Origin: a virus
Strand: one strand, 5' to 3'
Length of the DNA: 64,000 bases
Virus record (IMG/VR): IMGVR_UViG_3300046837_000353
Location: 1 to 64,000 of that record
Shown here one piece after another: positions 22,493 through 45,797 of the stretch. A program made the position numbers and the translations under genes. Within the stretch, counting starts at the first letter, position 1; each line of letters opens with the position of its first letter. Below the pieces are notes generated by a model. It was not told where the DNA came from. It did not search any database and was given only the letters and a program-made list of their open reading frames with translations.

Positions 22493-23062
22493 ATGGTTGA
22501 TTGGTTAAAGGTCAGACAAGGAGTCATTGATATTCTGGATGGTTTGGGATTGGATGCTAGAGATCCAAACTTTTTCGATACACCGGATCGGGTTGTGCGG
22601 GCTTATCAAGAGATCTTTGCAGGTCTAGATGAACGGAATACCGTTGAAGAGATGCTTAAAAGTGTGTTCCCCTGTGAACACCAACAGATGATTTTAGTTA
22701 AACATGTTGAAGTGTTTAGTATGTGTCCTCATCATCTTCTTCCAGTCCGTTATGATATTACGGCTGGGTACTTACCTGGTCCGGGGATTCGAGCAAAGGT
22801 CTTGGGCCTGTCAAAATTGGCTAGGATCACAAAGCTTCTAGCTGCCCGACCTGTTCTTCAGGAGCAAGTGGTTAACGATATCGCCAATACTCTAATGCGT
22901 ATACCTGAATGTCGTGGGGCTGGCTGCATTGCTACTGGTGAACACTATTGTATGCGTATGCGTGGAGTCAATCAGAGTGGCTCAATTGTTGTTACCAGCG
23001 CCTTGCGTGGTGAGTTCTTATCTGATTCAATGGTCCGTGAAGAATTCATGGACTTTAGATAG
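22493..23062 (+). CDS. folE: GTP cyclohydrolase I
   Basis: 189 aa; ATG 22493 preceded by GGGGGAAG. Converts GTP to 7,8-dihydroneopterin triphosphate, the first step to folate, biopterin and 7-deazaguanines. Seen: DTPDRVVRAYQEIF, the zinc/active-site SMCPHHLLPV (about 76-85), GLSKLARI (about 104-111), QEQVVNDIA and the GEHYCMRMRGV block (about 147-157). Length matches short phage/bacterial FolE. With QueD (44400), QueE (45093), QueC (25767) and a DpdA-like gene it supplies preQ0-type bases for DNA. Heads the apparent modification operon. Confidence 0.95.
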   Translation: MVDWLKVRQGVIDILDGLGLDARDPNFFDTPDRVVRAYQEIFAGLDERNTVEEMLKSVFPCEHQQMILVKHVEVFSMCPHHLLPVRYDITAGYLPGPGIRAKVLGLSKLARITKLLAARPVLQEQVVNDIANTLMRIPECRGAGCIATGEHYCMRMRGVNQSGSIVVTSALRGEFLSDSMVREEFMDFR

Positions 23063-23071
23063 GAGAAGTAG

Positions 23072-23731
23072 ATGGGTATCGCTGTTGTTACTGGAGCATC
23101 TTCTGGTATTGGTAAGGCAATCTATGATCACTTTAATACAAGCGACCGGTTTGATAGTGTTGTTGGTATAGCTAAGAACGGTCCGGATCTTGAATATGAC
23201 TTGTCGAGTGAGAAGGATATTCAAGAGATTGTGGATGACCTGCGCACCGCAGGTGACATTTCTTGTCTTGTAAATTGTGCGGGAATTTTGAAGCTTGAAG
23301 AGGTTGGAAATGAAGGTCAGATATTTGACGTTAACTTTTGGGCGCCATACTACCTGACTAATGCACTAAAGCATGAGTTGATTGCTGCACGTGGTTGTGT
23401 TATCAATATTGCCTCAGTTAGTGGGATGATTGCCGAGCCTGAGATTCCGATCTATGCCGCATCTAAGGCCGCGCTGATTTCACTGACCAAGAGTCTCGCT
23501 ATTAGGTTCTCACCCTTTTTTGTTAGGGTGAATTGCATTAGTCCTGGATTTGTTAAGACGAATCTGATTCCGGGTGATACACCAATTGAACTTCTCAACG
23601 CAATCCCCTTAGGGTTTGAAGCAGAACCCGCAATGCTCCTTCCAGTCGTCGATATGATACTTGATTGTCCTTACGTTACTGGTGCAAACTTTGTAGTTGA
23701 CGGCGGGGGTTCTTGTAGAGCTGCAATGTAA
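23072..23731 (+). CDS. Short-chain dehydrogenase/reductase
   Basis: 219 aa classical SDR, NAD(P)-binding. TGASSGIG (about 7-14) is the dinucleotide motif, NCAG (about 68-71), catalytic Ser in the ASVSG block (about 112), YAASK (about 127-131) the Tyr-x-x-x-Lys pair, and a C-terminal GANFVVDGGG. Nine bases after FolE. It may reduce a pterin or an oxidised side-chain or sugar intermediate of the DNA modification; FabG-like generic activity cannot be excluded. Confidence 0.88.
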   Translation: MGIAVVTGASSGIGKAIYDHFNTSDRFDSVVGIAKNGPDLEYDLSSEKDIQEIVDDLRTAGDISCLVNCAGILKLEEVGNEGQIFDVNFWAPYYLTNALKHELIAARGCVINIASVSGMIAEPEIPIYAASKAALISLTKSLAIRFSPFFVRVNCISPGFVKTNLIPGDTPIELLNAIPLGFEAEPAMLLPVVDMILDCPYVTGANFVVDGGGSCRAAM

Positions 23732-23764
23732 TGTGAGACACGGTGCCACGTAAGGGAAGGTAAG

Positions 23765-24835
23765 ATGTCTGAATTACACACACCACGGTACTCCTGCATA
23801 TTCCAGTCGAGAATGTGCCCACGTTCTTGTTCCTATTGTCTGAGCAAAGACGTTAGAGGAGATGGGACTTTTCTGTCACCGGAGCAATGGGCAGATGCAT
23901 TACACATTCTGGAGTATCATGGTGTCCAGTTCCACTTGTTTATCGGTAATGAACTGTTTTCCTATTCCGATCCTGTTGGCTTTGTCAAGGCAATCAAACC
24001 CTTCTATGGGAGGTATGGTATCTATTCGACATTCCCACCAGGATGGACTGAAAAATATTTTGATGACTGTATTAACGCTGGTCTGTATAACATCTCTGGT
24101 GGTGTGGACGTCCTTCCCGGGTTACATAAGACAGGTGACGTCCACATTGATCGCAAGGCTCAAGCGGTGCTTAGTTGGTTGGAGTATGCGCTGATGCGCG
24201 GTGTACCGGACGTGCAAGCGCAAATTACTATTCATCGACACAATTACGATAAGCTCTATCCATTGCTTGACTTGTGTACAGAAAAGGGGATGTGGGTTGG
24301 GTGTTCTCTAGTAGAAGCATCTGCGGATGGACTACACGATTTTTACGGTACTGCTGATACAATGACTGAATGGTTAATACCAGCAGATGAACGTAACAAG
24401 TTTAGCGATGAGATGTACAAGTTAGCGGATGAGGTTGCCACCGGCAGGTGGAAGATGCAGTTACCACCAACATACTTTCGTGAACTAGCAGATCGTGAAG
24501 TGAGGCGTGATCCTTGGCATTGCAGTTTGCCTATGCTGATCTCAATTGAAGAGGATGGTTCTCTGCGCGGGTGCGGGTATAGGGGACCACTATCAGAAAA
24601 ATATTCGATATTCGACCTTCGTGAGGGCGGAAAGTTGCCCATGTCTGAGTATATAAGGTTGCAGAGGGAAAAGACCAGTCAGTGCCCTGGTTGTGGAGTT
24701 GGTGGCGGGGCTTGGTCGTTCTGGTGGATGGCTGAGTATTGGTTAAAGGGTGATGTGGCAATGGGAGACAGAATCTTCCAGACACATGCACCGGGGCATC
24801 TCTTTGAAGCGACGGTGAGACAGGATGAGCAATAA
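23765..24835 (+). CDS. Radical SAM enzyme, SPASM-like C-terminus
   Basis: 356 aa. CPRSCSYC (about 18-25) gives the CxxxCxxC cluster that cleaves S-adenosylmethionine. TIM-barrel features follow (GVQFHLFIGNEL, GLYNISGGVD). A C-terminal Cys set, CSLPM (about 255), GCGYRG (about 271) and CPGCGVGG (about 302), suggests an auxiliary Fe-S site like SPASM/Twitch proteins. It is distinct from the QueE gene at 45093. Located between SDR and methyltransferase genes in the 7-deazaguanine block, so it probably builds or rearranges the base side chain; no characterised homologue is recognised. Confidence 0.85.
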   Translation: MSELHTPRYSCIFQSRMCPRSCSYCLSKDVRGDGTFLSPEQWADALHILEYHGVQFHLFIGNELFSYSDPVGFVKAIKPFYGRYGIYSTFPPGWTEKYFDDCINAGLYNISGGVDVLPGLHKTGDVHIDRKAQAVLSWLEYALMRGVPDVQAQITIHRHNYDKLYPLLDLCTEKGMWVGCSLVEASADGLHDFYGTADTMTEWLIPADERNKFSDEMYKLADEVATGRWKMQLPPTYFRELADREVRRDPWHCSLPMLISIEEDGSLRGCGYRGPLSEKYSIFDLREGGKLPMSEYIRLQREKTSQCPGCGVGGGAWSFWWMAEYWLKGDVAMGDRIFQTHAPGHLFEATVRQDEQ

Positions 24836-25082
24836 GCCAACAGTTGCTGAAGTGATGATAAAATTTCTTGTTGAAGAAAAGATTGCCAATCCTCATTCGA
24901 CATCTAAGAATGCCTCGGATGAAGAAGCGATAGCAATTTACGATAATTGTGTGGCATTTGTTGAGCGTTATTACCCTGATGTTACTACAGAAGAACTCCG
25001 CAAGGCTTTTCGTAAAGTACACAAGACTCCAGCGTCGAAGATGTGGGCTATAGCGAATAAGTACAAGGGTGGTACTGCATGA
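24825..25082 (+). CDS. Small hypothetical protein
   Basis: 85 aa, acidic, helical; overlaps the radical SAM gene at its start and the methyltransferase gene at its end (ATGA), so tightly coupled to both. Could be a partner subunit; no motif recognised. Confidence 0.65.
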   Translation: MSNKPTVAEVMIKFLVEEKIANPHSTSKNASDEEAIAIYDNCVAFVERYYPDVTTEELRKAFRKVHKTPASKMWAIANKYKGGTA

Positions 25083-25756
25083 AGTCCTATTCAAAGAAGA
25101 CAATCAAGCGATTTAACCTAACCATTGAAGGTGATGAATTTAATGATGCTGAACAGAATAAATCACTCTATGATGATCACGTGAGTGGATATGATGAGTT
25201 GACTAAGTTGTTAGACATCAATGATACAACCTATGTCTATCGTAAGGTACTCAATGTTGGTGCAGGTTCGGGTTCTCCGTTAAAGTTTCCCCATCCAGTT
25301 GATATGTACTATCTTGAGCCCAATCCAGATCGGGTTGAAGAGATTGATGTCGATCGTGATGATAACATAATCTCTGGTTGGTGTGAGAACATCGAGACTG
25401 AACTAAAGTTTGATATGATTATCTGTTGGGGAACATTGTGCTTTGTACGTTCTATACCAGAAACCCTAATTCAGTTTAATGATCGTTTGTTTAAAGAAGG
25501 TATGTTGGTACTAGATGTAGTTAAATCAACATCATTCCCACTATGCCAGACTGCTGATCCTGATAGTTTTATTAGAAATGTGAGTTTGTATGGGTTTGAA
25601 TTACAACATCGTATCCCCTTTGATCATTTGGGACACAATCGTGAGGGGATTCGCTTTAAGAAGGTTCGCGACTTTGACCCTAGGTATCTGCGGATGCCTC
25701 AGGCTAAGGATGGCTTGAGGAACTTCATCCCTGAGAGAGACTGGTTTCTATCTTAG
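25079..25756 (+). CDS. Class I SAM-dependent methyltransferase-like protein
   Basis: 225 aa. KVLNVGAGSGS (about 56-66) is a motif I glycine loop, YYLEPNPD (about 78-85) the acidic ribose-binding strand, FDMIICWGTLCFV (about 112-124) the motif IV region, and LFKEGMLVLDVV a following strand, as in small-molecule methyltransferases of the UbiE type. Not a DPPY/NPPY-type DNA methylase. Position suggests methylation of a modified-base or sugar intermediate, or a capping step; substrate unknown. Confidence 0.78.
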   Translation: MKSYSKKTIKRFNLTIEGDEFNDAEQNKSLYDDHVSGYDELTKLLDINDTTYVYRKVLNVGAGSGSPLKFPHPVDMYYLEPNPDRVEEIDVDRDDNIISGWCENIETELKFDMIICWGTLCFVRSIPETLIQFNDRLFKEGMLVLDVVKSTSFPLCQTADPDSFIRNVSLYGFELQHRIPFDHLGHNREGIRFKKVRDFDPRYLRMPQAKDGLRNFIPERDWFLS

Positions 25757-25766
25757 AGGAGATAAC

Positions 25767-26321
25767 ATGACACCTGGTCTAGTCGTTCTTACCAGCGGTG
25801 GTTTTGATAGTGCATTATTGTTACACATGGCAAAGCGGATGAACTATAATCCAATCGCCCTATTGATTGATTATGGTCAGAAACACGTTCGGGAATTGGA
25901 TGCTGCTGTTAAGTTGTGCGATGATCTCCAGGTTTCCTTTAAGCGGATGAAGGTTGATCTTGCTCAAGCAGTTGACTCTGGGTTGACTGGTACTTTGCAG
26001 GGTGGTAAGTATGAGGGACTGCATGAGATGCACGTCCCTGGACGCAACACTATCTTTGTTGGTCTAGCTCTGTCACTGGCAGAAGCTGTCGGTGCAACAA
26101 AGATTTGGTATGGAGCGAATTTTGAGGACCGGATAAATGAGTTTGCGGACTGCAAACAAGACTGGGTCCTCGAGATGAACAAGTCTCTAAAGATCGCGGG
26201 AAGCTACCCAGTGGAGTTGGAAGCCCCTTTGCTTGGGATGCGCAAGGACACTATTGTGCGCATGGGTAAGCTGTACCACGATATTAAGGAAGAGGAGGTT
26301 CACAGTGGGTATGCCGTCTAA
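25767..26321 (+). CDS. queC: QueC-like PP-loop enzyme lacking the zinc module
   Basis: 184 aa. PP-loop LTSGGFDSALLL (about 8-19) binds ATP; IDYGQKHVRELDAA (about 35-48), the PGRNTIF block (about 92-98) and GANFEDR (about 115-121) match QueC, which turns 7-carboxy-7-deazaguanine into the amide ADG and then the nitrile preQ0. Typical QueC is near 220 aa and ends in a four-Cys zinc site; here the chain stops at HSGYAV and no Cys cluster exists in any frame downstream, so the loss is real and not a frameshift. AGAGGAG precedes the ATG. It may stop at ADG or pair with another protein. Confidence 0.9.
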   Translation: MTPGLVVLTSGGFDSALLLHMAKRMNYNPIALLIDYGQKHVRELDAAVKLCDDLQVSFKRMKVDLAQAVDSGLTGTLQGGKYEGLHEMHVPGRNTIFVGLALSLAEAVGATKIWYGANFEDRINEFADCKQDWVLEMNKSLKIAGSYPVELEAPLLGMRKDTIVRMGKLYHDIKEEEVHSGYAV

Positions 26322-27132
26322 TAATGATAAGAAGATTCTTCACTGGAGATCCACGGCAAACGGAGGTGATCCTTCTTCTCCTACACAACCGGATTTGCCT
26401 GATGGGTTTATCACTATAAGGGAGGCTGTTAGTCTTACAGGTTTTTCTAAAACAACTATTCGTAAAACAAAAGTGACCCATCGACAAGAATGGCGTAGGA
26501 TAGATGGGAGGGTATTTGTACGCAAAGACTTTATCTTGGAATATTGTGCGGTTAGAGCTAGGCTTAGGGCTAGACCTGAACCCAGGAGGCGGAAAAAGAA
26601 GTACCCTAATCGTGTACCTGCTCGTTTTTTACTGCCTCTTAAACCAGGTGAATGGTTTATTAGGACTGAAGTTGAGAGGAGAAAGGGAACAGAAGGTGTA
26701 TACCTTCACTTTGTCTCTGGTGATGATCTTTCCGATCTGAATATCTACTCGTTTGATTGTATGTATAACGCGCTTAAAGCTGGTGGGTATTCTGAACTTA
26801 AAGGTTTACCAGAATGGACTGCAGTGACGGTTCCTAAGAATCGTAATATTCCGCAGTTAGAATTTGAACACAAGTATACAAAGAGGGAACAGGGTTTAGG
26901 TCATGTATGCCGAATTGGTACAACGGATGGTGCAGCTATTCCTTCCTGGATGAAGGCTCCTGGTTTGATGAAAGGTAAAATGGAGAGGGAATCGTTTGTA
27001 GGAAAGACTATTCTGCGAATTACGGCTACTCAAATGATCGAGATGGAGGGTTTTACACCTGGAGAGTTTGTGGACGAACGTATAAAAGAAGAAGGAAAAG
27101 CTTACTGGGGTCCTCTTTGGGATTTAACTTGA
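26305..27132 (+). CDS. HTH-containing hypothetical protein
   Basis: 275 aa from GTG 26305 (AGAGGAGG six bases upstream; ATG 26311 is the alternative). Overlaps the end of QueC. Residues about 27-60 (FITIREAVSLTGFSKTTIRK plus a wing) resemble a MerR/excisionase winged helix. A basic stretch (RARPEPRRRKKKYP) follows, then a domain I do not recognise. A sequence-specific DNA-binding protein is likely. Its insertion between QueC and DpdA genes may mean an unrelated moron. Confidence 0.55.
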   Translation: MGMPSNNDKKILHWRSTANGGDPSSPTQPDLPDGFITIREAVSLTGFSKTTIRKTKVTHRQEWRRIDGRVFVRKDFILEYCAVRARLRARPEPRRRKKKYPNRVPARFLLPLKPGEWFIRTEVERRKGTEGVYLHFVSGDDLSDLNIYSFDCMYNALKAGGYSELKGLPEWTAVTVPKNRNIPQLEFEHKYTKREQGLGHVCRIGTTDGAAIPSWMKAPGLMKGKMERESFVGKTILRITATQMIEMEGFTPGEFVDERIKEEGKAYWGPLWDLT

Positions 27133-27142
27133 GGGAATGAAA

Positions 27143-27523
27143 ATGGAAGAGCAGATCGCACACACTATGCTGATGAATAAGCACTATAGCCCGATGGTTG
27201 TCAGGAAGACCTCAACATGGGGCTTCCCAGTGTTTGTTGCTTTGATCACCGATGACGACTTGGCGGATCTGGATCAGGTTATTCTAAAGTTTATGCTGGA
27301 TGCAAAGGCAGTCAACGGGTGGTCAGATAATATTCAAAAGATGCGCAACCTGGCGGGAGCAATGGTTGAGATGCTCAATAATAGGTATCCGAAGGTTGAA
27401 GGATCAGCTGTGATAATTTATTCAGACAAATGCTTCATCTCTAGTTTGCATGGCGATCTGATGACACATCTTAGTTGTAAAGTTGAACTTTTCGAGCTTC
27501 TCAATATGAGTACTGGAGTTTAG
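27143..27523 (+). CDS. Hypothetical protein
   Basis: 126 aa; ATG 27143 preferred for its seven-base spacing to GAGGG. Mixed alpha/beta composition (WGFPVFVALITDDDLADLDQ; AVIIYSDKCFISSLHGDL). No family recognised. Confidence 0.6.
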   Translation: MEEQIAHTMLMNKHYSPMVVRKTSTWGFPVFVALITDDDLADLDQVILKFMLDAKAVNGWSDNIQKMRNLAGAMVEMLNNRYPKVEGSAVIIYSDKCFISSLHGDLMTHLSCKVELFELLNMSTGV

Positions 27524-27525
27524 TT

Positions 27526-27675
27526 ATGTCTCGTCCACGTGGGTATAAACATACTGAGGCTACCCGAAAGAAGCTTAGTGAAGGAACTAAATTACGTTAT
27601 GAGGCTGGGATATTGATGGGGTTTCGTGCTAAACCGTTGTCTGAGGAGGCACACGTTATGCTCAATTCCGTGTGA
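27526..27675 (+). CDS. NUMOD3-like short ORF
   Basis: 49 aa. GYKHTEATRKKLSEGTK (6-22) matches the NUMOD3 helix-loop motif (KHSEETRKKIS) found as DNA-contact modules in HNH/GIY-YIG homing endonucleases. No nuclease is attached, so it is either a remnant of a homing endonuclease or a small DNA-binding peptide. It overlaps the next gene by 4 bases. Confidence 0.5.
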   Translation: MSRPRGYKHTEATRKKLSEGTKLRYEAGILMGFRAKPLSEEAHVMLNSV

Positions 27676-28124
27676 CAAAAGATGAGAAGTCATCTAAGGA
27701 ATTAGCCATCTATGTCAACCATGCAGTGGATGGACACGTTTGCGCTGACTGTTCTATGTTTGATCCACCTGCCTCTTGCAATGCAGTGGCTGGTCCAATT
27801 AGTCCAGCGGGTCATTGCAGTTTCTGGACGGCCAAAGAAAACAATCTAAGAATAAGCAGTTTCCAAGGCTTACCCGTATTTATTGAGACATCTAAAGGTG
27901 AAAGACGTAGACAAGATTGGCCTATTATGCCAGCACACTATGGATTTATTACTATGACTAACTCACCAGAAAAGAATGATGGATTAGACGTCTTTATTGG
28001 AGACAATAAAGCCTGTCGTCACTGTTGGATTATTGACCAAATCCATCCAGATACAGAGGAGTTTGTCAATGACTTCCGAGATTCGTGGTCTTGTAACTTG
28101 CGAAATTCAAGAGATGCTCCATGA
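27672..28124 (+). CDS. HiPIP-like Cys motif plus InPase-like domain protein
   Basis: 150 aa from GTG 27672. N-terminal CADCSMFDPPASC and GHCSFW (about 21-52) resemble a high-potential iron-sulfur Cys pattern; residues about 65-135 (GLPVFIETSKGERRR, MPAHYGFITMT, DGLDVFIGDNK, HCWIIDQIHPDT) resemble the inorganic-pyrophosphatase-like domain found in phage head-associated and toxin-like proteins. The chain is shorter than usual. Its presence in the DNA-modification block is odd; it could hydrolyse pyrophosphate released by nucleotide chemistry, or be a stray virion-gene fragment. Confidence 0.6.
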   Translation: MTKDEKSSKELAIYVNHAVDGHVCADCSMFDPPASCNAVAGPISPAGHCSFWTAKENNLRISSFQGLPVFIETSKGERRRQDWPIMPAHYGFITMTNSPEKNDGLDVFIGDNKACRHCWIIDQIHPDTEEFVNDFRDSWSCNLRNSRDAP

Positions 28125-28582
28125 CGATAGCGATATGGGCTCCCCATGCAGATGACGAGATAATTGGTTGCTACCATGTACTTATGTCTAAAGAAAAGGT
28201 ACAAGTATACTATGGGGGGATTGTTGAAGATGGCTGCAAGAGAGCCTCTAGACTATTCGGTTTCGAATTTTACCATCTCAGCAATCTCGCTCGTCCTTGG
28301 GATGTCGTCTATGCTCCTGATCCTAATGTGGATATGCATCCGGAGCATCGCCGATTAGGCCAGATGGCCCATCAAATGTTTAGGGCGGGCAAGATAAGGC
28401 GAGTAATTCACTATTGTACAACGATGCAGGCGCCGTATATATTTGAAGTACCAGATCCCGAGGCAAAGCGGAATGCGTTGAATCAATGCTATCCTGAAAA
28501 GGGAGATTTATGGCGATACGAATGGAAATATGTATTATTTGAAGGATACTGGGAGGTATTAAGATTGGATCATAGAAAATGA
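28121..28582 (+). CDS. PIG-L/LmbE family deacetylase
   Basis: 153 aa. WAPHADDEIIG (6-16) is the zinc-binding P-H-x-D-D-E signature, and NVDMHPEHRRLG (about 68-79) the second His site; both are needed for N-acetyl-sugar deacetylation. The chain is shorter than most PIG-L enzymes (near 220 aa). ATGA overlaps join it to the gene before and to the glycosyltransferase after, so a GlcNAc-type sugar added or supplied by that enzyme could be deacetylated here, giving a free amine. Confidence 0.85.
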   Translation: MTIAIWAPHADDEIIGCYHVLMSKEKVQVYYGGIVEDGCKRASRLFGFEFYHLSNLARPWDVVYAPDPNVDMHPEHRRLGQMAHQMFRAGKIRRVIHYCTTMQAPYIFEVPDPEAKRNALNQCYPEKGDLWRYEWKYVLFEGYWEVLRLDHRK

Positions 28583-29526
28583 GACTGATAGTTGTACCCC
28601 AATATCCTGCGCAGCTACGATATCAATCCTGGTGGTTGACACGACTTGAAGATTACTATCTGTACTTTGATAAGGTACTTATCCTCCACCCACCGCAGTT
28701 TACCAATCAAGCTCATTTAAGTGGTGAATTTGCCCCGGCAATGGCGGCAATTGATTATGAGGTTAGACAGATCAGTTTGTATAATCAGTTAGTAATTGAT
28801 GAAGAGGATGATATATTACTTCTTTGTGATATTAGCTTTCCTGGACTATTCTCATCTGTTTTATTTCATAAGCGTCCTAAGAAATGCTTTGCCATTTGCC
28901 ACGCAACATCGCTTAATAGGTATGATTACTTTGCTGCGGTGCGTCCCGGGAAGTGGAGAGTGGAAACAGGGACTAGCAAGATATTTGATAAGATTTTTGT
29001 GGCAAGTGAGTATCATAAGGAGCGGTTAGGCTGGAAGAACACGGTGGTGATCAAGTTTCCGTTACCAAAGATTGATGAATTAGTGGAAAAGCGGTTGAGT
29101 AAGGAGCAACAACATCACCATAGTAGATCGTTTATTAGTGTGGCCCGGAAAGGGGTGCAAAAGATTGATTTAGAATTGGAGAGGTTTTTTGAATGGAGTG
29201 AGAGGACTAGTATACACAGGTTTTATCAAACTAAAGGTAAGACTTGGACTGATTACTATGGATTTGTTGAGGCTGGGCGGTTTATGATTATTACTTCCCG
29301 CGAAGAGACTTATGGCTATCAAGTCATAGACGCGTTATCAGTAGGCACTATTCCACTTGCTCCAAGAGCATTGTCCTACCCTGAATTGTTACCAGATGAA
29401 AATTTATACGAACCCGGAAGGGCTACTGATCTGATAGATACGTATAAAAGGTATGGAGATAAGCCCGCGCCTCCTTTGTGGGAAGACAAGTTCTTTGAGT
29501 TCACAGCAACTGAGATGAAAAGATGA
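28579..29526 (+). CDS. Glycosyltransferase, GT-B fold
   Basis: 315 aa. C-terminal nucleotide-sugar half shows TSREETYGYQVIDALSVG (about 237-254), the E-x7-E-like region of GT4/GT1 enzymes, then TIPLAPRALSYPELLPDENL, as in retaining glycosyltransferases. The N-terminal Rossmann half is less typical and begins RLIVVPQYP. ATGA overlap with the deacetylase upstream and the DpdA-like gene downstream. Probably glycosylates modified DNA or a 7-deazaguanine precursor; surface-polysaccharide modification is the main alternative. Confidence 0.75.
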   Translation: MRLIVVPQYPAQLRYQSWWLTRLEDYYLYFDKVLILHPPQFTNQAHLSGEFAPAMAAIDYEVRQISLYNQLVIDEEDDILLLCDISFPGLFSSVLFHKRPKKCFAICHATSLNRYDYFAAVRPGKWRVETGTSKIFDKIFVASEYHKERLGWKNTVVIKFPLPKIDELVEKRLSKEQQHHHSRSFISVARKGVQKIDLELERFFEWSERTSIHRFYQTKGKTWTDYYGFVEAGRFMIITSREETYGYQVIDALSVGTIPLAPRALSYPELLPDENLYEPGRATDLIDTYKRYGDKPAPPLWEDKFFEFTATEMKR

Positions 29527-30611
29527 AAAACTATGTGGTAATGTTGGATAGCGGTGCCTGGACTGCCCATACCAAGGGTATGACGATTAACTTGGATAAG
29601 TATGCAGAATTTGTTCATCAGAATAAACATCTGTTTGGTGGTGGTGTGTTCAATTTGGACTTCATAGATCCACCGGTCTCTGCTGCATACCAGACTGAAT
29701 CAGCTGAAAAGAGCTATAAGAACTGGATTGAGCTGCGCAAGCTTGGGATTGATACCATACCTGTTCACCATATTGGCGATGATGACGAGTCATACCTAAA
29801 GAAGTATTTAGAGCAGACTGATTATATTGGAATTGGTGCAATTGCCAAACTAAACGCTGAAGCTCGAATTTACGGACTTGATTATATCTGGAAAGAATAT
29901 CTGTCAAATAAGGATGGTACGCCCAGGTATAGATGTCATGGTCTTGGTTTGACTGATATCAAGATCACGCTGCGCTATCCTTGGTTCTCTGTGGATAGTA
30001 CTCGTGCGATTATGCTGGCTGCACATGGTGGTATCTTGCTGCCTAAACTTGATGGTGACAAGTTCTCCTACAGAGAGATATACCAGGTTGCGGTGAGTAA
30101 TCAAGGTCGTAGTCATTATCGGGGTAAGGGTGATAGTTTTTATGGCATGTCAAAGCTCATCCAGGGTCAGATAAAGCACTATTGTACTTCGTTAGGTTAT
30201 GAGTTGGATGATTCTATTGCGGGACGTACACTTAATCCCCTGATGAAGAGTCGAAAGAAGGTAGATGGTAAGTGGACGTCAGATTTTGCTTCACGTCAAT
30301 TGGGGTTCCCTGAAGAAGCTGCGCTTGCTGATGCTCCTTTAGTAAGTAACAATGTAGATGAGAAGAACTTGTCGGCAAGCTGGGTTCCCAGGTTTATCTT
30401 TAATCTATATGTGTCGGATCAGTTTATCAAGTATTGGCGCACACAAGGTAAAACGATCAGGATCTATAATGTAGTTGGTGGAGGCAATGTGTTCGACACG
30501 TTTGTTGTTGGATCACAGAGTGTCCCAGCTAATAGATGCTTGGTCAGTTATGCTAGGCTTTCCGGTTCCTTTCTTGATCGGTTAAAAGAGGTTGTCAATG
30601 GACATCACTAG
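29523..30611 (+). CDS. dpdA: DpdA-like DNA-guanine transglycosylase
   Basis: 362 aa. LDSGAWTAHTKG (8-19) carries the substrate-binding Asp-Ser-Gly-Ala of the phage DpdA/TGT superfamily, with NLDFID (about 46-51), PVHHIGDDDESYL (about 80-92), YIGIGAIAKL (about 99-108) and YPWFSVDST (about 159-167) carrying a second Asp, as in TGT-like barrels. These enzymes exchange guanine in DNA for preQ0-type bases. No zinc-binding tRNA-TGT motif is evident, consistent with the phage type. Overlaps the glycosyltransferase gene by 4 bases and the sliding clamp gene by 14, linking modification to replication. Confidence 0.85.
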   Translation: MKNYVVMLDSGAWTAHTKGMTINLDKYAEFVHQNKHLFGGGVFNLDFIDPPVSAAYQTESAEKSYKNWIELRKLGIDTIPVHHIGDDDESYLKKYLEQTDYIGIGAIAKLNAEARIYGLDYIWKEYLSNKDGTPRYRCHGLGLTDIKITLRYPWFSVDSTRAIMLAAHGGILLPKLDGDKFSYREIYQVAVSNQGRSHYRGKGDSFYGMSKLIQGQIKHYCTSLGYELDDSIAGRTLNPLMKSRKKVDGKWTSDFASRQLGFPEEAALADAPLVSNNVDEKNLSASWVPRFIFNLYVSDQFIKYWRTQGKTIRIYNVVGGGNVFDTFVVGSQSVPANRCLVSYARLSGSFLDRLKEVVNGHH

Positions 30612-32062: not shown

Positions 32063-33298
32063 ATGCCAATACCGAGGTTATTCGGGGATAATGAACCTCC
32101 AGCTAAAGGTGGGCTGGGTAAACCTCTGTCATGTGTATCTTGTGGTCTGTATAATGGACCAATCAACCCAAAGATGCCTCCCTTCGGGGATTTCAAGAAA
32201 CAGATTATGGTTATTGGTGAAGGACCCGGTGAACAAGAGGATCGAAAAGGTAGACCATTCCAGGGACCAACCGGTAATGCTATCAAAGAAGCATTGAGTG
32301 ATCTTGGTATTGATCTATTTCGTGATTGTATAAATTTGAATGCAGTTAATTGTCGACCACCTAGTAATAGAGCACCATCTGTCCACGAGATTGCGTGTTG
32401 TAGAGCGCGGATAGTGTCCCCCGCTATAGCTGCGCATAGTCCTCGATTAATGCTGCTACTGGGCGGGAGCGCCGTTACTAGTGTCCTTGGAAGTGTGCTA
32501 CCGGAAGCGCAGGACTCGAGCATTGGAAAGTGGCGTGGTTTTCACATCCCTCTACCGGAATTAGGTGCCTGGATTTGCCCAACGTATCATCCCAGTTATG
32601 TTTCCAGGTCCAGTGATAGGCCTGAAGTAGAGACAGTTTGGAAGAATGATTTGAAACAAGCTATTGACTTGCTAAATGTATCTGTACCCAGAGTAGAGAT
32701 TTTACGTAATAGGATTGTTCTTCTTCATGGTGAAGAAGAGATTCTTAGAGCATTGAATAGGGTAAAAGTACGAAAAGGTCTGTTCTCATTTGATTATGAG
32801 ACTGTAGGATTAAGTGCAAAGTTACACAGTATAGTTTGTGCGTCTTTTTGTCAGTCACCTGAGCGTGCGTATGCGTTTATGTTTACTGATGCTTCCGAGG
32901 CTGTTCGTCAAGCTTGGCGGGATATTCTAGTAAACGAAGATATTGGTAAGATCTCACATAATCTATCATTTGAATATGAGTGGAGCCGCTTCCATTTTGA
33001 TATTGATGAGATAAATTGGGCTTGGGATAGTATGCTTGCAGCACATGTTATTGATAATCGTACGGGTATTTGTGGGTTAAAGTTTCAATCTTTTATCAAT
33101 TTTGGTGTTGTAGGGTATGAGAATTTAATCGATCCCTATTTAAAGTCTGTAACACCGCGAGATCCCACTGCGCCAAACCGTATACTAGAGTTTATAGAGA
33201 GGCATGGTGAAGATGAATGCCTAATCTATTGCGGGATTGACTCCCTTCTCGCCTATAGGTTAACCATGAAGCAAATGAAAGAGATTGAAGATGGCTGA
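32063..33298 (+). CDS. UDG-superfamily domain fused to 3'-5' exonuclease
   Basis: 411 aa. Residues about 1-190: uracil-DNA glycosylase superfamily (family 4/5 type): VIGEGPGEQEDRKGRPFQGP (about 50-69), PTYHPSYV (about 178-185), plus an N-terminal CVSC; the other two Cys of a 4Fe-4S site are not clearly placed. Residues about 235-405: DnaQ/PolA-like exonuclease with FSFDYETVGL (Exo I), ISHNLSFEYEW (Exo II) and YCGIDSLLAYRL (Exo III). The polymerase itself is encoded separately at 33475. Likely proofreading subunit, with the UDG-like part scanning for uracil or recruiting the enzyme. Confidence 0.85.
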   Translation: MPIPRLFGDNEPPAKGGLGKPLSCVSCGLYNGPINPKMPPFGDFKKQIMVIGEGPGEQEDRKGRPFQGPTGNAIKEALSDLGIDLFRDCINLNAVNCRPPSNRAPSVHEIACCRARIVSPAIAAHSPRLMLLLGGSAVTSVLGSVLPEAQDSSIGKWRGFHIPLPELGAWICPTYHPSYVSRSSDRPEVETVWKNDLKQAIDLLNVSVPRVEILRNRIVLLHGEEEILRALNRVKVRKGLFSFDYETVGLSAKLHSIVCASFCQSPERAYAFMFTDASEAVRQAWRDILVNEDIGKISHNLSFEYEWSRFHFDIDEINWAWDSMLAAHVIDNRTGICGLKFQSFINFGVVGYENLIDPYLKSVTPRDPTAPNRILEFIERHGEDECLIYCGIDSLLAYRLTMKQMKEIEDG

Positions 33299-39974: not shown

Positions 39975-39975
39975 A

Positions 39976-40263: not shown

Positions 40264-40500
40264 ATGATGACTGATCTAAGTGGATTCACGTTATTTAAGA
40301 CAGGTGGGCGTTGGCAATTGTCAACTCGGCAGGAAGGACGTGATGGTTGGGATGTCCGATTCATAGGTAATGAGCTTGCACAGGATATTTTTGAGAAGAT
40401 CGCTACTGGTGTAGAACTTCCACCGGTTGTACATAGGAAAGTATTAGCATTATCACCGGATCCTATTGTAGCTAAGCCTAAGTTTGTTCGGGGAAACTAA
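40264..40500 (+). CDS. Small hypothetical protein
   Basis: 78 aa, LSGFTLFKTGGRWQLSTRQ start typical of small phage beta-domain proteins. ATG 40267 is an alternative start. Overlaps the SbcD gene start by one base. Confidence 0.6.
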   Translation: MMTDLSGFTLFKTGGRWQLSTRQEGRDGWDVRFIGNELAQDIFEKIATGVELPPVVHRKVLALSPDPIVAKPKFVRGN

Positions 40501-41471
40501 TGTACCTGCTCTTTACCGACACCCATTGGGATGACAATCCTGTTAATGAATACCGGTGGCAGATCTTTGATAAAATCGAAGAGATTAAGACTCAATACCC
40601 GATTACCCACACGTTTAATCTCGGCGATGCGGTTGATCGTAAGGATAGGTTTACTGGTGCTTTTGTCAATCGTCTGTTTGAGCATCTTAAACAAGTGGCA
40701 CCCATAACAATACTTCGTGGTAATCATGATACCACGCTTCGTCCTCCTAATTATTTTGATTTTATGTCTGAGGAGTTTCTCAGATCCAAGATCAACTATG
40801 TGGCAAAACCAGTCCCGTTCAATGATGGATTACTATTGTTACCATTCTCTGCAAAGCCAAAAGAAGATTGGAAGGGACTCAATTTTAGGGACTACAAAGC
40901 TGTATTTATGCACGCTACAGTCACCGGTGCTATCATTGAAAACGGGCAAGTAATGGAGAACCGAGGGTTCCCAATGATACCCGGTGATGTAAAGTTTTAT
41001 AGTGGTGACGTCCATGTACCACAAGACGTTCGCAATATTACTTATGTTGGTTGTCCTTACCCTATTAAGTTTGGTGATAGGTTTCCCTGCCGTATATTAC
41101 TTCTTGATGAAGATACTTTTCTCATAATGGAAGAGATCAAACTAACCCCTCCACGTAAGCTCATGGTTGATATTAGGGATATTGAAGGGTTAGAAAAGAT
41201 AAGAGTAAGGCAAGGTGATCAAGTAAAGATACGATTTTCCTGCAATCCTGCTGATATAGATTCCTTTGGACAGACCGAAGCTGCAATCTTGCGGTGGGCA
41301 AAAGAGCGTGGGGTAACGATCGCCGGTACAGAAGTGATCGTAAGCTCCACGTATAATAGGGATGTAGACACCAATCAGACACCTGAAATGATACTTAGGC
41401 GGTTTGCCGAACATGAAGGATTGACTGATGATATGCTTGGGGTTGGATTGATTATGTTGAAGGAGATGTAG
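40500..41471 (+). CDS. SbcD/Mre11-like exonuclease subunit
   Basis: 323 aa metallophosphoesterase: DTHWDD (6-11), LGDAVDRKD (about 41-49), RGNHDTT (about 75-81), MHATVTG (about 139) and SGDVHVPQ (about 166-173), the five metal-binding blocks. Equivalent of T4 gp47; works with the SbcC-like ATPase at 42302 on DNA ends. C-terminal capping domain present. Confidence 0.9.
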   Translation: MYLLFTDTHWDDNPVNEYRWQIFDKIEEIKTQYPITHTFNLGDAVDRKDRFTGAFVNRLFEHLKQVAPITILRGNHDTTLRPPNYFDFMSEEFLRSKINYVAKPVPFNDGLLLLPFSAKPKEDWKGLNFRDYKAVFMHATVTGAIIENGQVMENRGFPMIPGDVKFYSGDVHVPQDVRNITYVGCPYPIKFGDRFPCRILLLDEDTFLIMEEIKLTPPRKLMVDIRDIEGLEKIRVRQGDQVKIRFSCNPADIDSFGQTEAAILRWAKERGVTIAGTEVIVSSTYNRDVDTNQTPEMILRRFAEHEGLTDDMLGVGLIMLKEM

Positions 41472-41705
41472 ATGTTAAAGGGGATCGCTGAAGAAAAGGA
41501 CGGTCGCAAAGTTGTACTGATTGGCCTGTCACGTAAAAATCTAGAAATACTTATGGCTGAAATGTTAGATACTCACATCAGGGTATCTGGCAAGGAAATG
41601 GGCATCCCCATGGATATACTCATTTTCTCTGGTGAGACCGAAGAAGTAATGTCGCTTATGATGACTCAGAAAAATACCAAGATGTATCTACATTCGGATG
41701 AGTAA
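41472..41705 (+). CDS. Small hypothetical protein
   Basis: 77 aa, Met-rich (EEVMSLMMTQKNTKMYL). Sits between the two SbcCD subunit genes. Function unknown. Confidence 0.6.
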   Translation: MLKGIAEEKDGRKVVLIGLSRKNLEILMAEMLDTHIRVSGKEMGIPMDILIFSGETEEVMSLMMTQKNTKMYLHSDE

Positions 41706-41937
41706 GCAACGATGGGGAAATTACGGTATTAGATGGGAAAAGGGCTTCTGGGTAGTTCATATCATCTGGATGTATTATGGTGGTGATCGTCATTGGTGTT
41801 CCAGTAGTCGTATGTTAAAGCGCAGATCCAAATCATTGCCTCGATTGTTAGAGAAGATGTCTAATGCTGAAGCGGTGATGCTGTTTCCTACTGCGGAGAA
41901 ATGTAATGTCATCGTTCAAACCGACTCTTTGCATTGA
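41698..41937 (+). CDS. Small hypothetical protein
   Basis: 79 aa, Trp/basic-rich (MSKQRWGNYGIRWEKGFWVV). Overlaps both neighbours by 8 and 32 bases. Function unknown. Confidence 0.55.
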   Translation: MSKQRWGNYGIRWEKGFWVVHIIWMYYGGDRHWCSSSRMLKRRSKSLPRLLEKMSNAEAVMLFPTAEKCNVIVQTDSLH

Positions 41938-42301
41938 TTTTGATGGTGTGATCCATCATTACTCTAGAGGTTGGCAGGATGGGGCTATCTATGATGATGC
42001 TGTCCCTGGATTCTTTGAATGGTTAAAAATAACGCAGAAGCACTTTCGGATCGTTATCTATTCTTCTCGATCGGATACACCTGAAGGTATTGAATTAATG
42101 AAAGATTGGCTAACTAAACAATACGCTGTATGGCTTCGTGGAACCGGGAATGTAGGGGTCATTGAGGAGATTGAGTTTTCTAATGTTAAGCCACCCGCTT
42201 GGTTGACTATTGATGATCGAGCAATTCACTTTAAGGGTGATTGGTCTGCACCGGAACTTAGTGTTGATGCTATGCTTAACTTTAAACCATGGAATGGCTA
42301 G
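41906..42301 (+). CDS. HAD-like hydrolase
   Basis: 131 aa. CIDFDGVIHHY (about 9-19) carries the nucleophile Asp and second Asp of the HAD fold; YSSRSD (about 51-56) motif II and TIDDRAI (about 106-112) motif IV. Compact, without a clear cap domain, like phage phosphatases acting on small phosphates or nucleotides. Possibly a nucleotide 5'-phosphatase in the modification or dNTP pathway; substrate unknown. Confidence 0.75.
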   Translation: MSSFKPTLCIDFDGVIHHYSRGWQDGAIYDDAVPGFFEWLKITQKHFRIVIYSSRSDTPEGIELMKDWLTKQYAVWLRGTGNVGVIEEIEFSNVKPPAWLTIDDRAIHFKGDWSAPELSVDAMLNFKPWNG

Positions 42302-44086
42302 ATGAAACGGGTCGATTTAATACGAGTTGACCTGTCAAACTTTCGTTCCTTTGTGCGGGCTACTAGTATTGAGTTTAGTCCTAGTGCTGGGCTGAAGCTT
42401 ATTAGTGGCAGCAATGAAATGGAACCTGCACTGGGGGCAAATGGTGCGGGCAAGTCTACTGTATGGGATGCGGTATGTTGGTGTGTATCTGATAGATCGA
42501 TCAAGGGGCTTAGGACATCTGAGTTAGTTAGTTATGGTAAGGATAAGACTCAAGTAACAACGTATTGGGATATTGAAGGTATAATAGTTAGAGTGGACCG
42601 CACGGGTCCACCCAGTCATGTCTTTATTGATGGTGATCCAGCCACCACAGAAGATGTTGAGCGTCTATTAGGATTGTCTCGGTCTAGATTTCTCAACTCA
42701 GTGATCTTTGGGCAAGCTGTACCCCTGTTTATAGACCTACCCGTACCGGCACGTGGAGACCTGCTGGACGAGGTCTTAGATCTCGAGCTATGGATGCAGG
42801 CCGCAGATAAAGCTAGTGTACAGCACCGGAGCAAGGCTGCAGAGCTGGTGGAACTACAGAATACCATTGCAAGGGTCACTGGCCGCATAGAAGGTCTCCC
42901 AGATGTCGATAGACTAGCTGAAATGGAGGGTAACTGGGAGGATGAAAGAAAGGCTAGAGTACGTCAGTTAAAGACCAGGCTTAAGATTGTACAGGGTGAA
43001 TTGAGAACATTAGGCATTCCAACTGAGGATGTAGTTGTAGATGTTGCAGCTCGAAAGAAGGAGTACGAAGCTCAGCGGTATAGGCTGCACGCATACGAAA
43101 GGGAAAGTGGAAAGCTTAGGGCAAAGTGGGATAGGTTTGTTGAGGAGATGACATTTATTGAAGAGAATAGTGCATGTCCCGTCTGCGGGCAGGATATTGG
43201 GAAGGAGTACGCTGAAATCCATGGTCAACACCTGAAGGAAGGGTGCGAGAAGGCATTTGAAGAGCTTGAGGCCCAGAAATCGCTGATAGAACGTGCTGCA
43301 AATCGACTAAAAGCCTTAGAATCGGCTTGGACGGCCGCCATGCAAGCAGAATCTGCAGCCAAGCAAGCATTTGCAGTGATAAAGGCTAACGTGGTAGCAA
43401 AAACCAGGGAGGTAAAAGGCCTTCAGGAACAGGTAGACCAAGCTAATGCTGAAGTAAATCCCTATACAGAACAGAAGATCAAGGCTTTACATGATAAGGA
43501 TCTTCTTGAAGCTGAATTACTATTTAAGCGAGATGAGGAAAAAGCACAGGTATCCCATCTTGCAAAACTTAACTATTGGCGGCAGGGGTTTAGAAAGGTT
43601 CGCTTGTTCTGTCTTGAAAACGTATTACAAGAGTTAACAGTAGAAACAAGGAATTCTCTGTTAGCATTGGGATTGATTGGTTGGAAGATTGCCTTTAAAA
43701 CAGCAACAGAGACCAAGTCTGGATCAGTAAAGTTAGGTGTGCAGGTGGATGTTCACCCACCAAATGCTACACATGGTAGGTTTAGTAAGTTTGATGTCTT
43801 AAGTGGTGGTGAAGGGCAGCGGGCAAGACTGGCGGGTAGTTTGGGTCTTGCCAGTCTGGTGCAAAGATGGGCAGGAGTCCACTATAACTTTGAAGTGTGG
43901 GATGAACCGACCGCGTGGTTGTCCTCTGAGGGTGTTGAGAATTTGTTGGATTGTTTGTCTTACAGGGCAGATTCACAACAAAAGAGTGTTTGGTTGTGTG
44001 ATCATAGAGCATTGATGCATAGTTCCTTTGCAGAGACTTATTCAGTCGTAAAAAATAATTTAGGAAGCCACTGGGAAAGGGTTTAG
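42302..44086 (+). CDS. SbcC/Rad50-like ATPase
   Basis: 594 aa. N-terminal Walker A GANGAGKST (about 46-54), coiled-coil arms with a zinc hook CPVCG (about 293-297), C-terminal signature LSGGEGQRARLAGSLGLA (about 501-518) and D-loop region WDEPTAWLS (about 534-542). Equivalent of T4 gp46; tethers and processes DNA ends with the 40500 nuclease. The arms are short compared with bacterial SbcC. Confidence 0.92.
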   Translation: MKRVDLIRVDLSNFRSFVRATSIEFSPSAGLKLISGSNEMEPALGANGAGKSTVWDAVCWCVSDRSIKGLRTSELVSYGKDKTQVTTYWDIEGIIVRVDRTGPPSHVFIDGDPATTEDVERLLGLSRSRFLNSVIFGQAVPLFIDLPVPARGDLLDEVLDLELWMQAADKASVQHRSKAAELVELQNTIARVTGRIEGLPDVDRLAEMEGNWEDERKARVRQLKTRLKIVQGELRTLGIPTEDVVVDVAARKKEYEAQRYRLHAYERESGKLRAKWDRFVEEMTFIEENSACPVCGQDIGKEYAEIHGQHLKEGCEKAFEELEAQKSLIERAANRLKALESAWTAAMQAESAAKQAFAVIKANVVAKTREVKGLQEQVDQANAEVNPYTEQKIKALHDKDLLEAELLFKRDEEKAQVSHLAKLNYWRQGFRKVRLFCLENVLQELTVETRNSLLALGLIGWKIAFKTATETKSGSVKLGVQVDVHPPNATHGRFSKFDVLSGGEGQRARLAGSLGLASLVQRWAGVHYNFEVWDEPTAWLSSEGVENLLDCLSYRADSQQKSVWLCDHRALMHSSFAETYSVVKNNLGSHWERV

Positions 44087-44090
44087 TTAT

Positions 44091-44100
44091 CGTATAAAAT
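44091..44100 (+). promoter_or_regulatory. CGTATAAAAT element
   Basis: Fourth member of the CGTATAATA-like set; lies in the gap before the Zn-finger/QueD/QueE genes. Confidence 0.4.
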
Positions 44101-44124
44101 AAGTATTCAGCTGTGGGGATAGCT

Positions 44125-44400
44125 ATGGTATGGATCCCTCCTCAAGATATTAACCTCTCTCCACCTCCTGAAGATGGTGAAGAATTAAAGAAGACATTGA
44201 TGCGTCGTCGGGAGATACGTGGCACAGGTGTATGTGCCATGTGTGAGAATTCGGTATTTGGTCGTGATTTAACACTTGATAATGATGATGGTATTTGTGA
44301 GCTCGGGGATTTTGAAGGGGGAGATATTTTGTGTTTTTGGTGCTTTGAGGATTACGTATTTGGTGACCCTAATGACTTTACACCTGGAGGACATGCGTGA
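44125..44400 (+). CDS. Small zinc-finger protein
   Basis: 91 aa; GGGGA precedes ATG 44125. CAMCENS (about 37-43) and CFWCFED (about 73-79) form a paired-Cys zinc site. Overlaps QueD by one base (TGATG). Function unknown. Confidence 0.6.
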   Translation: MVWIPPQDINLSPPPEDGEELKKTLMRRREIRGTGVCAMCENSVFGRDLTLDNDDGICELGDFEGGDILCFWCFEDYVFGDPNDFTPGGHA

Positions 44401-44852
44401 TGTATCAGGTAGTCAAGCGCTACGGTCATGAAGAAGGTTGGTCTTGTACATTCCGGCAACATCGAGCAACTCACTCTCATTGCCGGTTTATACATGGTTA
44501 CCCACTAGCATTTGAAATCACTTTTGAATGCGAATTTCTTGATGCTCGTAACTGGTGTATAGACTTTGGTGGACTGAAGCCACTAAAGGCTTGGCTCCAG
44601 TCAATGTTTGATCACAAGATGCTTGTTGCGGAAGATGATCCGCAGATTGAGTTCTTTAAGCTAATCGCAGACGGTGGTAATGCCATTGCCGACATTGTTA
44701 TTGTACCCGATGTTGGATGTGAAAAGTTTGCTGAAATGGCCTATTATGAAGCGGATCGAATACTTGGGGAGATTGGAGAGAAGCCTAGGGTTAAATTGAG
44801 GTCTGTGCGAGTGTCTGAGCATGGAGGCAATAGTGCCATCTTCTCAGGATGA
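44400..44852 (+). CDS. queD: QueD, 6-carboxytetrahydropterin synthase
   Basis: 150 aa (GTG 44397 also possible). THSHCRFIHGYPLAFEITFE (about 23-42) matches the PTPS/QueD zinc and substrate block C-x3-HGH, here with Tyr in place of the third His (HGY). CIDFGGLKPLKAWL (about 52-65) and FDHKMLV (about 70-76) give the catalytic Asp/His region, with a C-terminal Glu (SEHGG) near residue 143. Makes the substrate of QueE. It precedes QueE with one small gene between. Confidence 0.83.
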   Translation: MYQVVKRYGHEEGWSCTFRQHRATHSHCRFIHGYPLAFEITFECEFLDARNWCIDFGGLKPLKAWLQSMFDHKMLVAEDDPQIEFFKLIADGGNAIADIVIVPDVGCEKFAEMAYYEADRILGEIGEKPRVKLRSVRVSEHGGNSAIFSG

Positions 44853-45093
44853 TTTTTTTGAGTTTCGGCCGAGAGGTGTCTTAGCTCATCGAGGTGATCG
44901 ATTGGAGCAGCTTCGCGAATTACGGCAAGCTGGTGCACCTCGTTTTATGGTGCGACATAATCAATTAAGTCTGTGGGCATACAGACAAGCGTTAAAGAAC
45001 CCTGCATACTTTTGCAAGGATGTAACCATTCCTGGTCTGCAAGAGAATTTCGTTAAGTTTGTTATGATACACTATACAGCGGGACGAACATAA
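44821..45093 (+). CDS. Small hypothetical protein
   Basis: 90 aa, Arg/Gln-rich helical (GDRLEQLRELRQAGAPRF). Overlaps QueD by 32 bases and QueE by one, so it is coupled to both. Function unknown. Confidence 0.6.
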   Translation: MEAIVPSSQDDFFEFRPRGVLAHRGDRLEQLRELRQAGAPRFMVRHNQLSLWAYRQALKNPAYFCKDVTIPGLQENFVKFVMIHYTAGRT

Positions 45094-45797
45094 TGCCCGA
45101 TACGATCCTCATAGCGGAATTGTTTGGTCCTGTTCTGCAAGGGGAGGGTGCACTAGCGGGAAAGGCTAGTCACTTTATTCGCACTAGTGGTTGCAGTTAC
45201 CGTTGCACTTGGTGTGACTCTATGCACGCTGTTGACCCAGATCAGATTCAAGCAAATTCTAGAAAGATGCCTATTGAAGATATTCTTAGAGAGGTAGAGG
45301 AACTACCAAAGGTTCCCTGGGTTACATTATCTGGTGGTGATCCGGTTGCTTGGGATTTGACTCATTTATGTCTTGAATTAAAGATGATGGGTTACAAGGT
45401 TGCTGTTGAAACGCAAGGTGCATTGTGGAATGACTGGCTTGAATTTTCTACCTTTGTAACCTGTTCCCCCAAACCACCCAGTAGTGGGATGGTGGATAGG
45501 CTGGACATTGCAATCTTACAAAAGTATTCAGTTAGGTTTCATGACAATATGGTGTTCAAGATAGTTGCTTTTGATGATGAAGATCTTGACTTTGTTCAAC
45601 GTATACATCGCGCCTTCCCAATGATTCCGATGTACATCACGGCTGGTACTCCGGCAGGTGAAGTGTTTGTCCGCAGGAACATTATCGAAGGGTTCCGCAA
45701 GATATCTGAATCTGTATTAAAACGTCCTCAGTTATTTGATGTGACGGTGGGTATACAACAACATGCCCTAATGTATGGGCGGGAGTTGGGGAGATAG
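45093..45797 (+). CDS. queE: QueE, 7-carboxy-7-deazaguanine synthase
   Basis: 234 aa radical SAM enzyme. GPVLQGEGALAG (12-23) substrate block, CSYRCTWCDS (about 33-42) the 4Fe-4S CxxxCxxC, VTLSGGDPVAW (about 76-86) the SAM-binding GGDP variant of GGEP, VETQGAL (about 108-114), CSPKPPSSG (about 128-136). Forms 7-carboxy-7-deazaguanine from the QueD product, which QueC (25767) then amidates. Length is typical. Confidence 0.95.
   Translation: MPDTILIAELFGPVLQGEGALAGKASHFIRTSGCSYRCTWCDSMHAVDPDQIQANSRKMPIEDILREVEELPKVPWVTLSGGDPVAWDLTHLCLELKMMGYKVAVETQGALWNDWLEFSTFVTCSPKPPSSGMVDRLDIAILQKYSVRFHDNMVFKIVAFDDEDLDFVQRIHRAFPMIPMYITAGTPAGEVFVRRNIIEGFRKISESVLKRPQLFDVTVGIQQHALMYGRELGR

Follow-up and report, generated by a model that had tools for sequence, protein, structure and literature searches.

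The window analysed here, the whole stretch of DNA comprising bases 1-64000 of the 74,010-base IMG/VR virus contig IMGVR_UViG_3300046837_000353, carries a cassette in which genes for 7-deazaguanine DNA modification stand together with genes for a glycosyltransferase (GT) and a PIG-L type N-deacetylase. We propose that some guanines in the phage DNA are replaced by a 7-deazaguanine bearing an amino sugar, a reading that we favour with moderate confidence. What homology and linkage show is a set of genes for making 7-deazaguanine, a DpdA, a GT with the GT-B fold and a PIG-L-like protein whose metal site is intact.

Gene content of the cassette

An initial annotation of the window had described a DpdA-type 7-deazaguanine DNA-modification pathway with linked additional enzymes. 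Scans with Pfam, PHROG and NCBIfam families, together with the open reading frame (ORF) list, recovered every gene it named on the + strand at the place it gave. The pathway stands likewise, with FolE, QueD, QueE, a QueC variant and DpdA all found. The order from 22.5 to 30.6 kb begins with FolE, the GTP cyclohydrolase I of the first step to 7-deazaguanine (22493-23062, its ATG at 22493 in an ORF of 22481-23062; PF01227, E 2.8e-51). It continues with a short-chain dehydrogenase/reductase (SDR; 23072-23731; PF00106, E 6e-29), aligned with those of the related loci L019 and L020 and adjoining a radical S-adenosylmethionine (SAM) enzyme (23765-24835; PF04055, E 2e-8), an accessory SAM-dependent methyltransferase (25079-25756; PF13489, E 2e-6) and the QueC variant (25767-26321; PF06508, E 2e-35). 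Then come a 128-residue protein, recognized by its conservation among relatives (27137-27523, hereafter the 27137 family), PIG-L (28121-28582; PF02585, E 8e-4), the GT (28579-29526), recognized by homologues in 7-deazaguanine phages and by its structure model, and the base-exchange enzyme DpdA (29523-30611). The PIG-L and GT genes overlap by 4 nt, as do the GT and DpdA genes. QueD (44397-44852, placed at 44400 in the initial annotation; PF01242, E 2e-15; TIGR03367, E 3e-8) and QueE (45093-45797; PF04055, E 1e-9; TIGR03365, E 7e-57, with 192.6 bits where the cut-off is 206.1) occupy 44.4-45.8 kb and are preceded by replication genes for a clamp, a DNA polymerase A, a clamp loader and RecA. Both score under the NCBIfam cut-offs and over those of Pfam. 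Seven further IMG/VR contigs contain the same DNA at 99.96-100% identity, 5 of them covering the entire 22-31 kb cassette and 2 beginning only at its end; the cassette is thus not an assembly accident. Megablast of the block against phage records gave no match.

The DpdA is of the phage 9g type. It matches phrog_887, named 'queuine tRNA-ribosyltransferase', over residues 6-180 (E 1e-33). No Pfam family matched it. By tblastn, matches were obtained in 187 of 50,697 phage records, including the phage 9g gene (E 2e-18), and the best 30 of these 187, which include sequences of phage 9g, Vid5 and Rhizobium phages, show 27-36% identity. Its DSGA, H139 and SVDS motifs are invariant in an alignment of 6 sequences.

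The window QueC keeps SGGFDS, YGQKHVRE and VPGRN, in keeping with the SGGxDS, YxQxHxxE and VPxRN motifs of the canonical signature, which further comprises YPDC and a C(x)8CxxCxxC zinc site (PMC13329287, in the text available). It has FADC in place of YPDC, the zinc site is absent from it, and its C-terminus reads SGYAV. The 27 unique QueC matches in related loci comprise 19 zinc-less sequences with an [ST]GY tail, 6 with the zinc pattern and 2 with neither. As 19 of 27 share it, the missing zinc site is a trait of the lineage and not the result of a frameshift. The zinc-less group mostly retains SGGxDS, YxQxHxxE and VPxRN and mostly has FPDC where the canonical motif is YPDC; judging from the motifs, the SGY near its end may be a stand-in for the WSCY region. 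QueC exceeds the family cut-off in only 5 of 20 GT-bearing whole records, that of Xanthomonas phage X1 having one match under the cut-off. Given these features, 7-cyano-7-deazaguanine (preQ0), which the initial annotation took as the intermediate, is only a candidate for it. A PADLOC scan of 8 cassette proteins returned QueC as its single match; among these 8 no partner gene of the Qat or type IV CBASS defence systems was seen.

The metal site of PIG-L is well preserved: the window protein has PHxDDE and HxxH, and in the alignment of 12 relatives all 12 keep PHxDD and HxxH, while the final E of PHxDDE is present in 11. The window GT has no match in Pfam and weak ones to PHROG glycosyltransferases (E 0.002); PF00534 was found in 2 of 3 relatives scanned, that of PhiXhv-15 being without a match. 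The structure prediction foreseen in the initial annotation gave a GT model with a GT-B fold (predicted local distance difference test, pLDDT, 79.4). In a Foldseek search of the PDB, the top row was a capsule synthase, followed mostly by BshA and MshA entries, which take up 11 of the first 16 places, at E 1e-7 to 4e-6, template modelling (TM) scores of 0.38-0.61 and 10-14% identity. The modelled enzyme appears to resemble BshA and MshA, UDP-GlcNAc enzymes that are paired with PIG-L deacetylases. Against a viral structure library, the best match was the GT of Acidovorax phage ACP17 (E 3e-14; rank 3 at 3e-7), whose gene is located among QueD, FolE, DpdA2 and QueE.

The radical SAM enzyme contains CxxxCxxC and four C-terminal cysteines (253, 270, 307 and 310), invariant in 3 sequences; its structure model is poor (pLDDT 57.8) and its profile weakly matches SkfB and MoaA. 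Its gene and that of the SDR are adjacent in 11 of 12 unique pairs. A parallel of the radical SAM enzyme with sugar deoxygenation by AprD4/AprD3 is conceivable. A scan with the radical SAM sequence gave 12 loci, of which 5 are near copies of the window and 11 have both GT and PIG-L. The methyltransferase and radical SAM sequences found no match in phage records by tblastn at E 0.01. The 27137 family, of about 125 residues, shows 23 invariant columns in an alignment of 20 sequences. Searches of Pfam, PHROGs and PADLOC at the thresholds applied assigned it to no family, NCBIfam gave one chance-level row (E 0.07), and its profile matched nothing in the PDB.

Linkage of the GT and PIG-L genes to 7-deazaguanine genes

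The initial annotation had suggested sugar decoration as a possibility and a survey of co-occurrence as a check. We pooled 110 loci, of which 107 contain the GT (100 of them from IMG/VR contigs; the 3 without it are L063, L071 and L139). Some loci are overlapping stretches of one contig, L027 and L030 score identically and are apparently near duplicates of each other, and G001 almost duplicates the window; dereplication at 90% identity left 70 GT clusters. Tallies were made by phmmer with seeds from the same loci, at E <1e-5 for the scan loci and clusters and at 1e-3 for the 20 loci collected through GT or DpdA. Flanks extended to at most about 12 kb, less at contig ends, and a gene farther off counts as absent. 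At least one of FolE, QueD, QueE, QueC and DpdA was taken as a classical 7-deazaguanine marker.

Scanning IMG/VR with PIG-L alone yielded 77 loci. The GT is present in 75 of them, always downstream and on the same strand, with a gap of 700 nt or less in 53 of the 75, and a classical marker lies in the flanks of 62 of the 77. In the reverse direction, 16 of the 20 loci that had been collected through GT or DpdA contain PIG-L. A classical marker accompanies 59 of the 70 GT clusters; PIG-L accompanies 64, a number inflated by the PIG-L scan. The survey thus shows that the GT/PIG-L module recurs with 7-deazaguanine genes, which places the suggested sugar decoration on firmer ground. Profile searches detected FolE and the QueD family each in 17 of 20 GT-bearing records; a single FolE tblastn query matched 392 of 50,697 phage records, a search that differs in sensitivity from the profile search. 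Among the 20 GT-bearing records, DpdA1 was detected in 8 and DpdA2 in 6. Over the loci as a whole, the GT and DpdA1 genes are immediate neighbours in 18 of 25 unique pairs.

Two arrangements could be distinguished. In the 28 clusters with QueC or the 27137 family (A-type), PIG-L occurs in 27, the radical SAM enzyme in 16, the SDR in 10, the methyltransferase in 6, and a T-fold-like protein and a PP-loop enzyme in none; the window lineage has the order zinc-less QueC, 27137 family, PIG-L, GT, DpdA. In the other lineages the GT is paired with the T-fold-like protein, often together with the PP-loop enzyme: the 27 clusters of this type include PIG-L in 22 and the PP-loop enzyme in 17, and QueC, the 27137 family, SDR and radical SAM in none. 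Neither type was assigned to 15 of the 70 clusters, among them L026, although its contig holds QueC and the 27137 family. Over all 70 clusters, the 27137 family is found in 27 and the methyltransferase in 6. The T-fold-like protein belongs to phrog_17812, a function-unknown PHROG present in 21 phage records, 5 of them beyond the GT-bearing ones, and has no match in Pfam. From an HxH motif in its alignment with QueD, we read it as a putative QueD-like T-fold; it may possibly be the 7-carboxy-7-deazaguanine (CDG) decarboxylase DpdL. In L016 and several other contigs PIG-L is fused to this phrog_17812 domain, which recurs in these clusters. A scan of genome contigs gave one locus, L143, an 11.9 kb contig of a Halanaerobiales metagenome-assembled genome with a full A-type block and a sliding clamp; it may be a phage contig that was placed in the bin of its host.

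Divergent relatives of the GT are also found in the 7-deazaguanine clusters of cultured phages, namely Xanthomonas X1 and PhiXhv-15, Acidovorax ACP17 and Pseudomonas Paride. In a small set, blastp links the window GT to those of L016, X1 and PhiXhv-15 (E 5e-17 to 4e-10). By tblastn, the L016 GT found 16 phage records at E 1e-3 and the window GT 4 others at E 0.01. In L016 and X1, PIG-L, FolE, QueE and a DpdA are close to the GT; the X1 enzyme is one that we take to be DpdA2 from the record's own gene name, its PHROG being function-unknown. PhiXhv-15 combines PIG-L with a glutamine amidotransferase-QueC fusion annotated as fructose-6-phosphate aminotransferase. One record per lineage was examined (X1, PhiXhv-15, Paride, ACP17, Phosso and BUCT-ZZ01): FolE is present in 6 of 6, and QueE lies near the GT in Paride, ACP17, Phosso and BUCT-ZZ01. 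In Paride (L031), a 540-residue gene at 8379-10001 that overlaps the GT gives a weak alignment to DpdA2 (E 0.0028, probability 11%) and is possibly a divergent DpdA; candidates in Phosso and L023 were rejected, showing no such alignment. In the text of the Paride paper (PMC10761892), 'deazaguanine' and 'queu' each occur 0 times. Upstream of its Gat-QueC, PIG-L and GT genes, PhiXhv-15 (L018) has an acetyltransferase-like gene with look-alikes and a gene annotated as leucyl/phenylalanyl-tRNA--protein transferase, and an aminoacylated sugar is conceivable in this phage.

Other features of the window were noted in passing. A phosphoribosyltransferase-like gene 3' of QueE (45937-46356, +; PF00156, E 2e-4, below the cut-off), of which a counterpart adjoins QueE in the L019 contig, Paride and BUCT-ZZ01, might at a guess serve in salvage of the guanine released by DpdA. 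Between QueC and PIG-L, the gene at 26311-27132 weakly matches an excisionase/regulator family (phrog_66, E 0.002), and a short ORF at about 27526-27675 has what looks by eye like a NUMOD3 motif; together they are perhaps a decayed homing-endonuclease insert. The gene at 32063-33298 (+) joins a uracil-DNA-glycosylase domain to one of a 3'-5' exonuclease, and L016 9879-11105 looks alike by eye. Far from the block lies an amidoligase-like gene (4816-6030, -; phrog_2443, E 3e-36), and a ParB-like partition gene occupies 12666-13685 (-; phrog_1033, E 6e-7).

Proposed pathway and alternatives

In the pathway that we propose, FolE, QueD and QueE would produce CDG, and the zinc-less QueC with ATP would activate its carboxyl group, leading to an amide or a nitrile. 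DpdA would swap the base into DNA. The sugar, an N-acetylhexosamine, would be taken by the GT from a UDP-sugar of the host; PIG-L would strip the acetyl group to leave a free amine, as in the paired steps of BshA/BshB and MshA/MshB. In the window lineage, the SDR, radical SAM enzyme and methyltransferase would further change the sugar or the base, and the product would block restriction enzymes. We infer a GlcNAc-type donor, deacetylation to an amino sugar, DNA as the final place, remodelling by these three enzymes and an anti-restriction role.

Several observations weigh against this proposal. PreQ0 lacks a hydroxyl group that could be glycosylated, and the atom that would carry the sugar is therefore not fixed. 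In VIA-align several GT4 enzymes, tetrahydrobiopterin glucosyltransferase among them, score Z near 20, and many tie within Z 1; these ties and the TM range mean that kinship with BshA leaves the sugar of the GT unfixed. The window PIG-L scores 20.3 bits in Pfam, below the gathering score of 28.2 (that of PhiXhv-15 passes the cut-off at 31.2), and its profile matched no chain in the PDB. The profile of the DpdA found no solved tRNA-guanine transglycosylase (TGT) in the PDB. The DpdA1 and DpdA2 profiles detected no DpdA in 6 of the 20 GT records (G006, G007, G010, PhiXhv-15, Paride and Phosso). Within the flanks, 15 of the 77 PIG-L loci show no classical marker and 2 (L071 and L139) no GT, and PIG-L was not seen in the stretches examined of Paride, ACP17, Phosso and BUCT-ZZ01. 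Finally, L063 has a radical SAM relative beside QueC (a 721-residue ORF) and DpdA1, with no match for GT or PIG-L; the radical SAM enzyme may therefore act on the base rather than on the sugar.

The zinc-less QueC, or the PP-loop enzyme elsewhere, could instead be an amide ligase that joins the CDG carboxyl to the amine of a small sugar compound made by GT and PIG-L, DpdA then inserting the conjugate. We regard this as unlikely but conceivable, because QueC scaffolds can, by proposal or report, ligate CDG to amines: the QueC-family proteins QatC and Cap9 have been proposed or reported to attach CDG to protein amines (PMC13329287, in the text available). The core motifs mostly kept by the variant, its frequent FPDC and its end near SGY agree with such an activity, as does the mutual absence of PP-loop enzymes (0 of 28) and QueC (0 of 27) from the flanks of the two cluster types. 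The same module nevertheless occurs with a zinc-type QueC in L019, L082, L105, L115 and L120, and the Gat-QueC that accompanies PIG-L and GT in PhiXhv-15 is also of the zinc type; a ligase would moreover leave the GT without a known acceptor. An extended version, which we find equally doubtful, makes the zinc-less QueC and PP-loop lineages two independent CDG-to-amine ligases, with the T-fold-like protein and two unnamed families (about 125 and 140 residues) as further dedicated parts; the product would be a 7-deazaguanine sugar amide, a new class of DNA base.

It appears improbable that the DNA contains ordinary preQ0 (or 7-amido-7-deazaguanine, ADG) and that GT and PIG-L, brought alongside by chance synteny, serve a different end, for instance in making surface glycans or a thiol-like small sugar compound. 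GT clusters of jumbo cyanophages are thought to make surface glycans (PMC7824862, in the part available), and the window PIG-L and GT score weakly when taken alone. Yet the GT keeps company with 7-deazaguanine genes across very diverged viruses, in the 59 of 70 clusters noted above, and PIG-L is fused to the phrog_17812 domain of these very clusters. We give very little credence to a product that is not a DNA base, namely a glycosylated pterin or free 7-deazaguanine glycoside of the biopterin glucoside or huimycin type. FolE, a 6-pyruvoyltetrahydropterin synthase-fold gene and an SDR are present, the modelled GT reaches Z 19.4-19.9 against tetrahydrobiopterin glucosyltransferase, a tie with other enzymes, and huimycin is GlcNAc on a preQ0 derivative (PMC7439116, in the text available); however, the genome also holds QueE and a DpdA-type gene, the GT is so often next to DpdA1, and the SDR is matched in the flanks of 0 of 27 T-fold clusters. 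A DNA base with an amino sugar is our preferred reading. In a literature search of titles and abstract beginnings, which covered few subscription papers and preprints, no sugar-bearing 7-deazaguanine in DNA was found among the entries listed; an earlier prediction is possible.

Comparison with known systems

GT, PIG-L, an odd QueC and the 27137 family are conserved alongside the 7-deazaguanine genes and probably serve to attach an amino sugar to the base. If this is true, a sugar on 7-deazaguanine would combine in one base two forms of DNA armour already known, the replacement of a base and its glycosylation. The module is widespread in viral metagenomes, where the 107 GT loci, 100 of them from IMG/VR contigs, form 70 clusters at the 90% identity level, and it is open to testing now because it is also found in cultured phages. 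It further marks a zinc-less QueC subclass and conserved families of function not yet assigned, and its enzymes could be used to introduce chemical handles into DNA.

In bacillithiol and mycothiol synthesis, the GTs BshA and MshA transfer sugar to malate or inositol phosphate and the PIG-L deacetylases BshB and MshB follow. The window likewise pairs a GT-B-fold GT with PIG-L, whereas those pathways are not known to have a link to DNA. The alpha- and beta-glucosyltransferases of T4 place a sugar armour on hydroxymethylcytosine, that is, on a modified base as proposed here, although that base is not a 7-deazaguanine. In 2023 Cui and colleagues reportedly described four further phage 7-deazaguanines, methyl-, formyl-, carboxy- or unsubstituted; these bases are likewise elaborated and inserted by DpdA and, unlike the one proposed, are not known to bear a sugar. 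The phage systems described in the available text of Hutinet 2019 (PMC6884629) use DpdA with preQ0, G+, ADG and preQ1, and this text contains no word starting with 'glycos'. Like them, the window has FolE, QueD, QueE, a QueC-like gene and a 9g-type DpdA in one genome; unlike them, it adds GT, PIG-L, the 27137 family, SDR, radical SAM and methyltransferase, and its QueC has no zinc site. The available part of Iyer 2021 (PMC7824862) names no GT or deacetylase in the deazaguanine system of PA5oct, in which it differs from the window. Huimycin is a free antibiotic, and its gene table lists no DpdA or PIG-L, unlike the window; it consists of GlcNAc on a preQ0-derived core, attached, as has been proposed, by the product of a GT gene beside the preQ0 genes, and in its cluster, as in the window, genes for a GT and a methyltransferase accompany the preQ0 genes (PMC7439116, in the text available).

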